DNA of 39,446 nt from a virus: the IMG/VR virus record IMGVR_UViG_3300030106_002400, positions 1-39,446 of that record; one strand, written 5' to 3'. Both the position numbers and the translations under genes were made by a program. Shown here in pieces: positions 3,941 through 24,546 of the stretch. The notes below the pieces were generated by a model. It was not told the origin of the DNA. It searched no databases and saw only the letters and a list, made by a program, of their open reading frames with translations. Position 1 is the first letter of the stretch; the number at the start of each line of letters is the position of its first letter.

Positions 3941-3956
3941 AGGGACGCAAGTCCCT
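3941..3956 (+). other. Hairpin immediately upstream of the tRNA
   Basis: AGGGAC (3941-3946), a GCAA tetraloop of the GNRA class, and GTCCCT (3951-3956) form a perfect six-base-pair stem. It ends four bases before the first base of the tRNA. It could mark a cleavage site that frees the tRNA 5' end or protects the upstream mRNA 3' end. Confidence 0.55.
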
Positions 3957-3960
3957 TCCT

Positions 3961-4032
3961 GATCCTATGATCTAACGGTTATGATGCCAGCCTGTCACGC
4001 TGGTCATGTGGGTTCAATTCCCACTAGGATCG
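3961..4032 (+). tRNA. tRNA-Asp (anticodon GTC)
   Basis: The complete cloverleaf is visible. Acceptor GATCCTA pairs with TAGGATC over seven base pairs. The D-arm has A14, A15, GG and A21 in place, with three pairs and one T-T mismatch. Anticodon stem CCAGC/GCTGG encloses loop CTGTCAC, giving anticodon GTC. T-arm GTGGG/CCCAC encloses TTCAATT. The discriminator base is G, the identity element for Asp. CCA is not encoded, as in most cyanobacterial tRNAs. It lies between two early genes, flanked by hairpins on both sides. It may supplement host tRNA or replace it if host tRNAs are degraded. Confidence 0.93.
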
Positions 4033-4033
4033 T

Positions 4034-4048
4034 TGCCCATTAAGGGCA
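4034..4048 (+). other. Hairpin immediately downstream of the tRNA
   Basis: TGCCC (4034-4038) pairs with GGGCA (4044-4048) around ATTAA, starting two bases after the tRNA discriminator base. GTTCACC follows at 4053-4059 and the next gene starts at 4074. Together with the upstream hairpin it brackets the tRNA. Confidence 0.45.
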
Positions 4049-4073
4049 TACTGTTCACCTATTCATTATCATT

Positions 4074-4451
4074 ATGCTCAATGCAATTGATAACATCAAA
4101 GCTACCTATGACTACGATCAATGCAAGGAAATTGCTGAGAATGGCTGTCAATCTGGTGTGTGCTCTGAACACATATATTATGGTGACACCATCCAGTTCT
4201 TTGATACTTATGCAGACGAAGTTACCAACTACATCAAGGATGTCCTTGGTATCGGGGCGTTAGATGAGACATTCAAGGACTCTAATTATTCTATCAATAT
4301 GTATAAGAATAATATGACATGGATATTCATTGAACTCGTAGCCATGGAAGTTGTTGATGAAGTAGAGGAGCAACAATTAGAGGATGACCTCATAATTGAG
4401 GGGTATAATCCTGCACGTAGCATGTCAATGTCACGATATGCTCACGCATAA
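4074..4451 (+). CDS. Conserved phage protein of unknown function (DUF7222-like)
   Basis: A 125-residue acidic protein. The pattern C-KEIAENGCQSGVC, then EHIYYGDTIQFFDTYADEV, then MTWIFIELVA matches a small phage family that I recall as DUF7222, found in many marine and enterobacterial phages without known function. The two Cys residues around NGCQSGVC are a family feature. A negatively charged EVEEQQLEDDL segment precedes a short polar tail. It is preceded by tRNA, hairpin and GTTCACC and has no Shine-Dalgarno sequence. The family number should be treated as tentative, but membership of a conserved phage family is fairly secure. Confidence 0.7.
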   Translation: MLNAIDNIKATYDYDQCKEIAENGCQSGVCSEHIYYGDTIQFFDTYADEVTNYIKDVLGIGALDETFKDSNYSINMYKNNMTWIFIELVAMEVVDEVEEQQLEDDLIIEGYNPARSMSMSRYAHA

Positions 4452-19679: not shown

Positions 19680-20465
19680 ATGACCGACACATTAACTTAT
19701 GATCCTACACCGGCAGATGCCCCTGAATTATCTGAAGAAGAACAGAGCTCATTAGAAGTTGCTGAGAAATTAGGTGAAGAAGAAGGTAATCTACTGGCAG
19801 GTAAATATAAAAATGCTGAAGAATTAGAGAAAGCATACACTGAACTTGAAAAGAAATTAGGTGAACGTTCTGATGAATCTAAAGCTGAAACTGAAACTGA
19901 ATCTGAGGATACTCCATCCATTTCTCCTAATGCTCAGTTAATAACTAGTGCTTCTGAGGAGTTTGAAAACTCAGGAGAATTAACATCTGAGACTTTAGAG
20001 AAATTATCTTCAGTAGATAGCAAGGATCTCATCCAAGCTTATCTCGAACTACAATCTAGTAACCCAGAAGAGTCAGCCGAACCTAGTCAAGTAGCAGATT
20101 TATCTGATGCAGACGTTAACCAAATAAAAACTTCAGCAGGTGGTGAGGAGTCCTATCAAAAAATAATTGATTGGGCTAGTAATAATTTAGAACCTAATGC
20201 TGTACAAGCATTTGATAACATCGTCAATTCAGGTAGTGTAGAAGCCATTCAACTTGCAGTTAATGGACTGAAAGCACAGTATGAAAATGCTAACGGTTAC
20301 GAAGGCAAGATGATAACAGGTAAAGCACCTCAAAACAGTAGAGATGTTTTCAGAAGTCAAGCAGAACTAGTAGCTGCTATGAGTGATAGAAGATATGATA
20401 ATGATCCTGCTTACCGTCAAGATATCATTGATAAAATAGAACGGTCTGACAAACTAACATTTTAA
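19680..20465 (+). CDS. Capsid assembly scaffolding protein (T7 gp9-like)
   Basis: A 261-residue, highly acidic protein, Glu/Ser rich and predicted to be mostly helical, as is usual for scaffolds. An N-terminal KYKNAEELEKAYTELEKKLG element is the typical start of T7-type scaffold helices. The C-terminal part becomes basic (RYDNDPAYRQDIIDKIERSD), the end that binds the capsid protein in related phages. Position after the portal agrees. It directs prohead assembly and is then lost. Confidence 0.9.
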   Translation: MTDTLTYDPTPADAPELSEEEQSSLEVAEKLGEEEGNLLAGKYKNAEELEKAYTELEKKLGERSDESKAETETESEDTPSISPNAQLITSASEEFENSGELTSETLEKLSSVDSKDLIQAYLELQSSNPEESAEPSQVADLSDADVNQIKTSAGGEESYQKIIDWASNNLEPNAVQAFDNIVNSGSVEAIQLAVNGLKAQYENANGYEGKMITGKAPQNSRDVFRSQAELVAAMSDRRYDNDPAYRQDIIDKIERSDKLTF

Positions 20466-20907: not shown

Positions 20908-21954
20908 ATGACAACCCTTACCTTACAAAGGAATAACTGGAATCGCTTTTGCGAATGGGTAACCAGTACGGATAACCGCCTCTACGTTGGTTGGTTTGGT
21001 ACCTTAATGATACCCTGCTTAATCACCGCAGCGACATGCTTTATTATCGCTTTCATTGCTGCACCACCCGTTGACATCGACGGGATTCGAGAACCTGTCG
21101 CTGGATCACTACTCTATGGTAACAACATCATCTCCGGGGCAGTTGTCCCGTCATCGAACGCAATCGGTCTTCACTTCTACCCAATCTGGGAAGCTGCAAC
21201 CATCGACGAATGGTTGTATAACGGAGGACCATATCAACTCATTGTGTTCCACTTTCTCATCGGTATCTCAGCTTACCTGGGACGGCAATGGGAACTTAGT
21301 TATCGACTAGGGATGCGCCCTTGGATTTGTGTTGCTTACTCAGCGCCAGTGGCTGCGTCTTTCGCAGTCTTCTTGGTATACCCTTTCGGACAAGGAAGTT
21401 TCTCTGACGGTATGCCGTTGGGGATCTCAGGAACATTCAACTTTATGTTTGTCTTTCAAGCGGAACATAATATCCTTATGCATCCTTTCCATATGTTGGG
21501 AGTTGCGGGGGTATTTGGTGGAGCTTTGTTCGCTGCTATGCACGGATCATTGGTCACCAGTTCCATTGTCAAAGAGACAAGCGATATTGAATCACAAAAC
21601 TATGGCTACAAATTTGGACAATCAGAAGAGACTTACAACATTGTAGCTGCTCATGGATATTTCGGGAGGTTAATCTTCCAATATGCGAGCTTTAATAATT
21701 CTCGTTCTCTTCATTTCTTTCTTGCTACTTGGCCAGTGGTTTGCATATGGCTTACCTCCATGGGAGTATCTACCATGGCTTTCAACTTGAATGGATTTAA
21801 TTTTAATCAATCCGTTCTGGATGCTGATGGTAAGGTAGTTCCGACGTGGGCTGATGTTTTAAACAGAGCTGACCTTGGAATGGAAGTAATGCATGAGAGA
21901 AACGCACATAATTTCCCGCTAGATTTAGCGGCGACACCTGAAACAGTAGGTTAA
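20908..21954 (+). CDS. psbA: Photosystem II D1 reaction-centre protein
   Basis: A 348-residue D1, aligned to cyanobacterial D1 with a constant shift of three residues. The redox tyrosine (Tyr158, D1 Tyr161), its partner His187 (His190), the P680 ligand His195 (His198), iron ligands His212 and His269 (His215, His272), and manganese-cluster ligands Asp167, Glu186, His329, Glu330, Asp339 and Ala341 are all present. Gln127 matches the Gln130 low-light variant rather than Glu130. After the processing site (DLA/A) only seven residues follow. No intron interrupts it. Expressed during infection it replaces photodamaged host D1. It is inserted between scaffold and capsid genes. Confidence 0.98.
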
Positions 21955-22010: not shown

Positions 22011-22172
22011 ATGACTACTAACAAATTTGCAACTGAACCTCAAGTAGAAGTACTCGATGTAGATTACATGGAGAATGCTGAACGTGTTAACGGACAGCTC
22101 GCTATGCTTGGCTTTATAGCAGCCATTGGTTCTTATATTTTTACTGGACAAATCATCCCAGGTTTATTTTAA
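22011..22172 (+). CDS. hli: High-light-inducible protein (Hli), single-helix chlorophyll-binding protein
   Basis: A 53-residue protein carrying the full Hlip signature: Glu24-x-x-Asn27-Gly28 followed by AMLGF (ENAERVNGQLAMLGF), one membrane helix, and the phage-typical TGQIIPGLF end. Glu24 and Asn27 ligate chlorophyll in this family. Hli proteins protect the photosystems, bind free chlorophyll and help D1 repair, so pairing with psbA is functional. It lies 56 bases after psbA and just upstream of a riboswitch-like RNA. Confidence 0.95.
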   Translation: MTTNKFATEPQVEVLDVDYMENAERVNGQLAMLGFIAAIGSYIFTGQIIPGLF

Positions 22173-22185
22173 AAACAATAACGCC

Positions 22186-22258
22186 GCGTCCGTTCATCCT
22201 TAATTGGACGCATGAAACCACATCATGGAACGGGGGTGTGGTACTATGGAGGAATCAA
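22186..22258 (+). ncRNA. Glutamine-riboswitch-like leader (downstream-peptide / glnA RNA type)
   Basis: A three-way junction is visible: P1 CGTTC (22191-22195) with GAACG (22228-22232); P2 TCC (22197-22199) with GGA (22206-22208); P3 CATGA (22211-22215) with TCATG (22223-22227). The P3 loop ACCACA (22217-22222) is perfectly complementary to TGTGGT (22237-22242), the pseudoknot expected of the downstream-peptide class. Six bases later comes the GGAGG ribosome site (22248-22252) of a 21-residue peptide gene. Known members bind L-glutamine and occur in cyanobacteria and their phages. A rival stem GCGTCC (22186-22191)/GGACGC (22206-22211) could be the alternative, unbound fold. Confidence 0.82.
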
Positions 22259-22324
22259 ATGCAGAACACAAAAAAGCAGAGAACCTACAAGTATCGCGGC
22301 GTGCCTTACACCAAAACTACTTAA
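22259..22324 (+). CDS. 21-residue downstream peptide (DUF4278-like)
   Basis: A short gene, 21 residues, directly under control of the riboswitch-like leader, with GGAGG six bases before the ATG. The core YKYRGVPYTK matches the YRGVxY signature of the small cyanobacterial DUF4278 / downstream-peptide proteins, and the N-terminus is basic (NTKKQRT). In cyanobacteria, genes regulated this way belong to glutamine and glutamine-synthetase control, so the peptide may bind and modulate a host nitrogen protein. That role is inference; the pairing of RNA and peptide is what is seen. Confidence 0.8.
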   Translation: MQNTKKQRTYKYRGVPYTKTT

Positions 22325-22336
22325 ACATTTTTACAC

Positions 22337-22702
22337 ATGAAAAACATAGCACTAGCTCTCGCGTCCGCCTTCGTGACCGCTCCTGCTTTCGCCGGACCCT
22401 ACGTGAACATCGAATCGAACAGTTCCCTATTAGGTACTGATTATAACAGTACTGTAACTGACTTCCATGTCGGTTGGGAAGGGGGTAACGATAGCTTCGA
22501 TTATTATATTCAGGGTGGTCCTGCTGTAGCCGCATATGATGGCGAAGACAGTGATACCAGACTCTCTGGTAAAGTTGGAGCCAACATTGCTGCAACTGAG
22601 AAGCTTGGATTCTACGGTGAAGTCGCAGTTATAACTGCTGACGAGAGCACCGATGATGACAATTCTTGGTCAACCAAAATTGGTGCAAAGTACAGCTTCT
22701 AA
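22337..22702 (+). CDS. Exported small beta-barrel-like protein
   Basis: A 121-residue protein with a clear signal peptide (MKNIALALASAFVTAPAFA, cleavage after residue 19). The mature part alternates strand-like segments with acidic turns (FHVGWEGG, YYIQGGPAVAAY, RLSGKVGANIAA, LGFYGEVAVIT, WSTKIGAKYSF) and ends in Phe, the usual C-terminal residue of outer-membrane barrels recognised by the BAM machinery. About 100 mature residues would suit a small barrel of about eight short strands or fewer. It is co-located with the nitrogen-type riboswitch and hli and is followed by a strong terminator. It may alter host envelope uptake or block superinfection; no family identified. Confidence 0.75.
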   Translation: MKNIALALASAFVTAPAFAGPYVNIESNSSLLGTDYNSTVTDFHVGWEGGNDSFDYYIQGGPAVAAYDGEDSDTRLSGKVGANIAATEKLGFYGEVAVITADESTDDDNSWSTKIGAKYSF

Positions 22703-22711
22703 ATAACATAT

Positions 22712-22765
22712 ATCCTTGACCATTGAACTGCTACAGTCCGCTGTAGTAGGTCAAGGATTTTTTTT
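22712..22765 (+). terminator. Strong intrinsic terminator after the psbA cassette
   Basis: ATCCTTGACC (22712-22721) pairs perfectly with GGTCAAGGAT (22749-22758), followed by eight T residues. Inside the loop a second perfect stem, CTACAG (22731-22736) with CTGTAG (22741-22746), forms around TCCG. It separates the host-like cassette from the capsid block. A further hairpin, GTATGG/CCATAC, at 22771-22787 follows at once and may be the 5' end of the next transcript. Confidence 0.92.
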
Positions 22766-22809
22766 CACTAGTATGGCGGAACCATACCAGACTCGATTGA
22801 CTAATAATC

Positions 22810-23529: not shown

Positions 23530-24546
23530 ATGGCTAACGCCACGCAGTCAGTACTTGGTGCCTTAAATAAGGCTGTAACCTCAACTGATGGTTCAGTCGC
23601 ATATGATACCAAGTATGCAACCTATTTGAAGCTGTTCTCAGGTGAGCTATTCAAAGCTTATGAGTCAGCAACTATCGCACGTGACACCGTGCAACGCCGT
23701 ACACTTAAGAACGGCAAGAGTCTACAGTTCATCTTCACAGGTAGAATGCAGGCGGCTTACCATACACCAGGAGAACCAATCCTGGGATCCGGTGATCCTC
23801 CAGTAGCTGAGAAGACCATCCAATGCGATGACCTTCTCATCTCCAGTGCATTCGTCTATGACCTTGATGAGACTCTTTCTCACTACTCACTTAGATCTGA
23901 AATCTCTGCTAAGATCGGTCACGCTCTAGCTGAGGCATATGATAAGAAAGTCTTCCGTACAATTGCACTAGCTGCAAGAGAAGCTCATCCTATCACTGCA
24001 TCTCCTGGTCCAGAACCCGGCGGTACTCAGATTGAATTGGGTGTAACTAAGGAATATGAAGCACAAGCTCTAGTAGATGCTTTCTTTGAAGCAGCTGCTG
24101 TTCTTGATGAAAAGAATCTTCCTAAGACAGGACGTACTGCTGTACTAAACCCACGTCAGTACTATGCTCTAGTATCCCAGGTATCTACAAACATTCTCAA
24201 CAGAGACTATGGTAACGGACAAGGTAACCTAAACTCTGGTGAAGGTCTTGTTGAGATAGCTGGTATCCAGATCCGTCGTTCTAACAACCTCCCATTCTTG
24301 GCTGGTACTGTTAACCCCGTATCTGGTGAGAACAATTCATACAACGGTGACTTCTCAACTCACTGTGGCTTGATCTATCAAAGAGATGCTGCAGGTATTG
24401 TTGAAGCTATCGGACCACAAGTTCAAGTAACTGGTGGGGATGTATCCGTTCTTTATCAGGGTGATGTACTCGTAGGACGCCTAGCAATGGGTGTAGGTAC
24501 ACTTAACCCAGCAGGTGCTATTGAACTTACTTCTGCACGTAGCTAA
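23530..24546 (+). CDS. Major capsid protein (T7 gp10-like)
   Basis: A 338-residue HK97-fold capsid protein, close to T7 gp10A (345 residues). Recognisable blocks are the YLKLFSGELFKAYESATIA start, RTLKNGKSLQFIFTGRMQAAYHTP-type E-loop region with GEPILGSG, the DDLLISSAFVYDLDETLSHY strand, and the C-terminal VLYQGDVLVGRLAMGVGTLNPAGA seen in T7 relatives. It forms the icosahedral shell on the scaffold. Expression is probably very high; a strong terminator lies downstream, as at T7 T-phi. Confidence 0.97.
   Translation: MANATQSVLGALNKAVTSTDGSVAYDTKYATYLKLFSGELFKAYESATIARDTVQRRTLKNGKSLQFIFTGRMQAAYHTPGEPILGSGDPPVAEKTIQCDDLLISSAFVYDLDETLSHYSLRSEISAKIGHALAEAYDKKVFRTIALAAREAHPITASPGPEPGGTQIELGVTKEYEAQALVDAFFEAAAVLDEKNLPKTGRTAVLNPRQYYALVSQVSTNILNRDYGNGQGNLNSGEGLVEIAGIQIRRSNNLPFLAGTVNPVSGENNSYNGDFSTHCGLIYQRDAAGIVEAIGPQVQVTGGDVSVLYQGDVLVGRLAMGVGTLNPAGAIELTSARS

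Follow-up and report, generated by a model that had tools for sequence, protein, structure and literature searches.

The window analysed here, a virus record of 39446 bases taken at its full length, is a fragment of a T7-like cyanopodovirus and encodes a phage RNA polymerase. The region of interest is bounded upstream by the scaffold gene (19680-20465) and anchored downstream by the major capsid protein gene, MCP (23530-24546, plus strand; phrog_267, E 1.5e-79), whose product is 95.9% identical to the MCP of cyanophage NATL1A-7. The interval between them holds psbA, encoding photosystem II D1 (20908-21954, plus strand), hli, encoding a high-light-inducible protein of 53 aa (22011-22172, plus strand; phrog_178, E 3.6e-20), an RNA element, a 21-codon ORF, a beta-barrel gene, one further ORF and two small ORFs. 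psbA is annotated at the equivalent position in isolates, and in tblastn comparisons with cyanopodovirus contigs the window copy shows mostly 82-92% identity. Only two Rfam matches were obtained in the window, a tRNA at 3961-4032 and the Downstream-peptide family, RF01704, at the RNA element.

The RF01704 match covers 22188-22242 on the plus strand and scores 54.9 bits (E 9e-11 over the window), far above chance and well over the curated gathering cut-off of 33 bits. Judged by its sequence, the RNA is a glutamine-II (Downstream-peptide) riboswitch aptamer. The initial annotation had read it as a glutamine riboswitch of the downstream-peptide type, and both the covariance-model score and the covariation described below support that reading. 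Using the numbering of the crystal structure (PMC6698751), the 5' strand of the PK helix, C1-C5 (22191-22195), is followed by A6 (22196), the P1 hairpin UCC-loop-GGA (22197-22208, with strands 22197-22199 and 22206-22208) and the linking strand C17-G18-C19 (22209-22211), in which G18 forms a triple and C19 makes the long-range pair with G41. Next come the 5' strand of P2, ACCACATC (22217-22224), A33 (22225), G35 (22227) and the segment 22228-22234, comprising the 3' strand of the PK helix, G36-G40 (22228-22232), with G41 (22233) and G42 (22234). The 3' strand of P2, GGTGTGGT (22235-22242), completes a helix of 8 bp, and all of these elements lie on the plus strand. Thus the PK helix CGUUC/GAACG, the C19:G41 pair and the conserved G18, A33 and G42 are all present at 22191-22234, as are the nucleotides that the crystal paper assigns to the ligand site and pseudoknot (PMC6698751). 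A strong Shine-Dalgarno sequence, GGAGG, follows at 22248-22252 (plus strand), 5 nt past the end of P2 and 6 nt ahead of the ATG at 22259.

The helices named in the initial annotation correspond to those of the family under other labels. Its 'P1', CGTTC 22191-22195 with GAACG 22228-22232, is the PK helix; its 'P2', TCC 22197-22199 with GGA 22206-22208, is the family P1; and its 'pseudoknot', ACCACA 22217-22222 with TGTGGT 22237-22242, is part of the 8-bp P2. The hairpin it called 'P3', CATGA 22211-22215 with TCATG 22223-22227, exists as a complementarity and was rejected as a helix of the family, as it lacks covariation and conflicts with the solved ligand-bound fold. It would pair C19 with G35 and would also engage A33 and the P2 bases 22223-22224, all of which are committed otherwise in the bound fold.

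In order to assess the structure by covariation, we collected related sequences with a search pattern in which CGTTCA, CGCA and CATGGAACGGG were fixed, while P1, nearly all of P2 (everything save its innermost C) and everything downstream were left free. The pattern retrieved at least 120 viral stretches; in genomes its matches came for the most part from Prochlorococcus and Synechococcus, apart from some chance hits in others. From the phage matches we aligned 46 distinct sequences without gaps, after exchanging the P1 loop, which varies, for a constant spacer. Across these 46 sequences 98.3% of cells are paired in the canonical structure, a value reached by none of 500 shuffles. Ten pairs vary on both sides, giving 91 double-change cells compared with 18.6 in shuffles, and the signal is lost when the partner columns are slid by 1-3 positions. 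Double-sided changes occur at all three pairs of P1 and at seven of the eight pairs of P2, where 97.8% of cells are paired and which carries most of the total signal, so that compensatory changes in related phages are found in the very helix that the initial annotation had described as a pseudoknot. The PK helix is invariant in this alignment because its sequence was fixed by the search pattern.

Alternative conformations were also considered. A stem between 22186-22191 and 22206-22211 had been put forward as a possible ligand-free competitor of the aptamer, but its compensatory changes are not above those of shuffled controls and its outermost pair is present in only 4 of the 46 sequences. 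Although the phage copies conserve the flank CGTCC, which can often pair with GGACG, this flank does not follow the changes in P1, which leaves the competing stem without support beyond sequence conservation, and we rejected it. The longer flank ACGTCC, directly before GTTCA (22184-22191 in the window; loci L001-L126), is common to the cyanopodovirus copies; it is absent from host copies and does not covary with P1. The plain nested fold of the RNA is unremarkable (z −0.35), as expected for a pseudoknot. In the nested fold the window Shine-Dalgarno is mostly open, with a paired probability of 0.29. Nested folding across cyanopodoviruses revealed no common partner that would hide the Shine-Dalgarno in a ligand-free structure, and a general occluding structure of this kind was therefore rejected.

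The ORF behind GGAGG (22259-22324, plus strand), which the initial annotation had correctly placed within the psbA/hli/barrel cassette as a 21-codon YRG-type gene, starts 17 nt past the aptamer and encodes the YRGVPY peptide MQNTKKQRTYKYRGVPYTKTT. A short ORF with a YRG motif is present in 111/111 phage loci for which 200 nt or more of DNA past the RNA was available, and the full YRGxxY motif occurs in 115 of 120 loci among the matches listed. At random positions in the same contigs, short YRGxxY ORFs were encountered at a frequency of 1.25%. Codon changes in the peptide are mostly synonymous, with a pN/pS of 0.08 overall and 0.16 when the Y, R and G codons are left out, and pN/pS exceeds 1 in the other two frames of the region. 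By this codon-level measure the YRG peptide is under purifying selection. Its size varies among phages: the shortest form has 13 aa (MVTYVYRGVVYTK), others have 17-21 aa, and forms with an N-terminal extension reach 33-42 aa. The gene lacks annotation in most isolates that carry RF01704. The 21-aa window peptide has no match in Pfam or PHROG and does not reach the DUF4278 (PF14105) cut-off of 25.3, being too short to score. Longer phage relatives, with 34 and 43 aa, stay just below this cut-off at 21.6 and 25.1, respectively, and host proteins with the YRG motif score 33-47, above it. We therefore describe the window peptide as DUF4278-like and do not count it as a member of DUF4278.

The next gene (22337-22702, plus strand) is predicted to encode a cyanophage outer-membrane-like beta barrel with a signal-peptide-like N-terminus. 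It matches Phage_OMP (PF24653) with 147.4 bits against a cut-off of 27 (E 3e-43) and phrog_417 with E 3.8e-41. Its start lies 12 nt past the peptide stop and has no Shine-Dalgarno. In all 21 loci with this arrangement, the window included, the barrel start lies between −4 and +17 nt relative to the peptide stop, and the barrel genes lack a Shine-Dalgarno. This absence was rejected as proof of coupling, because barrel genes that lie upstream of psbA in other phages, far from the RNA, mostly lack one too. The consistent spacing nevertheless makes translational coupling from peptide to barrel plausible on geometric grounds. Among the matches listed, the barrel gene is 3' of the RNA in only 18 contigs out of 120; in 18 others it is upstream, and most relatives have no barrel gene after the RNA. 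Beyond the window barrel, a long inverted repeat, ATCCTTGACC...GGTCAAGGAT, runs into a T-run (22712-22766, plus strand) and is probably an intrinsic terminator that closes the unit; it was not among the hits of a simple terminator scan in which only loops of 3-8 were allowed.

The aptamer occupies the same genomic place in most related viruses examined. A capsid gene lies downstream of the RNA in 84/86 IMG/VR cyanopodovirus contigs with enough sequence, at a median distance of 384 nt, and scaffold or cassette genes lie upstream in 87/89. Among isolates, RF01704 matches were obtained in 11 (P-SSP7, 9515-10a, P-SSP10, NATL1A-7, S-RIP2, S-TIP37, P-GSP1, P-SSP2, S-CBP1, S-CBP4 and SS120-1). Syn5, P60, S-CBP2, S-CBP42 and S-B28 gave no RF01704 match down to E 0.5, and S-SRP01 gave none at the curated cut-off. 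S-SBP1 (MT424636; locus L380, 3938-4138) does possess the aptamer, which Rfam misses, presumably because of a long insert. Here a 54-codon gene (3947-4111) with a weak match to phrog_628 sits inside the P1 loop, starting at an ATG in the 5' strand of P1 and ending at a stop codon within the linking strand, CGCATGA. In S-CBP3 (L368, 4195-4270) a YRG peptide is found at the same locus behind a diverged glutamine-aptamer-like element containing GGAACGC; this element has no Rfam match to E 0.5 and is perhaps closer to the glnA class. In SS120-1 (L377, 4130-4181) a glutamine-II aptamer and a 17-aa YRG peptide lie between the scaffold and capsid genes. Since no psbA is annotated at this locus, the RNA-peptide unit is not tied to photosynthesis genes. 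In P-SSP7 the stretch from the peptide to the capsid gene contains a tRNA-arm-like sequence, GGGAGGTGCGAGTCCTCCC (L121, about 2633-2700), and in NATL1A-7 a tRNA-Gly is annotated upstream of the capsid gene.

The riboswitch class itself has been published (PMC2864571). The ligand of the Downstream-peptide aptamer is L-glutamine, and the riboswitch works as an ON switch, in which binding stabilizes the PK helix and raises translation (PMC6316151, PMC6698751), and ON switching is known for a Prochlorococcus copy (reviewed in PMC6316151; PMC6698751). Proteins of the DUF4278 family have been published as targets of glutamine-II riboswitches (PMC6316151). Riboswitches have been termed rare in phages (PMC9004378). 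Reports of glutamine riboswitches exist for T4-like cyanophages (PMC9602691, PMC9964418) and for a marine methylophage (PMC9004378). In the open-licence papers searched, we found no description of the cyanopodovirus locus.

The type 2 glutamine riboswitches (RF01704) of Prochlorococcus and Synechococcus resemble the window copy in their core nucleotides, in their P1-PK-P2 fold and in their position directly ahead of a gene for a short YRG protein. Unlike them, the window copy resides in a lytic T7-like phage, within a photosynthesis-gene cassette. Its P2 is an uninterrupted 8 bp, whereas host copies have a mismatch or bulge beside about 6 bp, and its peptide carries a single YRG motif, compared with the two or more that are usual in hosts. 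The YRGxxY motif and control by a glutamine riboswitch are shared with DUF4278 proteins and with the N-terminus of glutamine synthetase inactivating factor IF17 (gifB), but the window peptide, with its 21 aa and no Pfam score, has no room for the rest of an inactivating factor. The relation to the IF17 N-terminus suggests that the peptide may have its target in host nitrogen metabolism.

Glutamine-I (glnA, RF01739) riboswitches of T4-like cyanophages likewise place a glutamine aptamer before YRG proteins, but their aptamer architecture differs. The copy we examined (L299, 4618-4705, with similar loci among L247-L366) appears to consist of tandem glutamine aptamers ahead of YRG proteins, and 421 phage records match the region. 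The second aptamer of L299 falls between two Rfam families, with 34.4 bits for glnA against a cut-off of 35 and 27.0 for glutamine-II against 33, and is thus missed by annotation that relies on cut-offs. Two further features of the cyanomyovirus copies were set aside. An upstream GAACG(NNN)CGTTC hairpin was reread as the 3' end of the preceding tandem aptamer. Pairing of CTGAAG to the Shine-Dalgarno region was found in 48 of 65 copies compared with about 1 in shuffles, but 42 remained when the partners were re-dealt, so the complementarity reflects conserved sequence and not covariation.

Taking the results together, we consider it highly probable that the element is a phage type 2 glutamine riboswitch that turns on the YRG peptide, and probably the barrel along with it through the same translation. 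We infer the glutamine ligand and the ON direction from the family, and the phage copy retains all elements known to be required. The RNA would be transcribed within the psbA-hli cassette of the structural-gene region. When glutamine is plentiful, its binding would stabilize the PK helix (22191-22195/22228-22232) together with the C22211:G22233 pair, and this helix would stack on the 8-bp P2 (22217-22224/22235-22242), which ends 5 nt before GGAGG. The bound state would leave the Shine-Dalgarno open for translation of the 21-aa peptide, and the barrel gene 12 nt further on would probably be carried by the same translation. A glutamine-rich cell would thus likely switch on the peptide, and maybe the barrel too.

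One rival reading concerns only the coupling to the barrel in this scheme. The RNA could be a working glutamine riboswitch that serves the peptide alone, as a YRG micropeptide cut down from a relative of DUF4278 or the IF17 N-terminus and acting on a host nitrogen-metabolism protein, with the barrel merely a neighbour; we give this reading almost an even chance. It fits the observation that the constant unit across phages is the RNA with the YRG peptide, the barrel being next in so few of the matches listed (18/120), and that host peptides sharing this motif reach the DUF4278 cut-off. However, wherever the barrel is next, no more than 17 nt separate its start from the peptide stop, which is tighter than unrelated genes need, and the phage peptide retains nothing of its putative relatives but a single YRGxxY motif.

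Two other readings question the switch itself or its target. The aptamer might be a passenger acquired from the host that has lost its switching function in the phage, with constitutive translation of the peptide. Cyanophages commonly acquire cassette genes from their hosts, and no conserved expression platform was recognized, but mere translation would not demand that the core be kept and P2 upheld by compensatory changes across many divergent phages. We regard the passenger reading as very improbable. The main targets of the element might instead be the structural genes further downstream, for example if it worked as a glutamine-dependent checkpoint or as a site of RNA processing or pausing in the late transcript. 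MCP is indeed its most constant downstream gene (84/86, median 384 nt), also in SS120-1; even so, this seems unlikely given the intrinsic-terminator-like repeat between the element and MCP in the window and the lack of any visible link to MCP translation.

For the glutamine riboswitch ahead of the YRG peptide, it is possible, and we propose only tentatively, that the cyanopodovirus lineage maintains, at a constant place ahead of its capsid genes, a glutamine-gated translation switch that drives a micropeptide with a single YRGxxY motif and, in the subset to which the window belongs, a coupled barrel as well. With lengths down to 13 residues, the peptide is a very short natural version of the YRG (DUF4278/IF17-like) motif that is under purifying selection. 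The system is small, clean and conserved, its aptamer structure is known, and it occurs in cultured phages such as P-SSP7 and 9515-10a, so that it can be tested directly whether a phage reads the nitrogen status of its host during infection. If the proposal is true, the phage would link part of its late programme to the nitrogen state of the host, and the conserved place of the switch points to viruses that read the nitrogen status of the cell late in infection.
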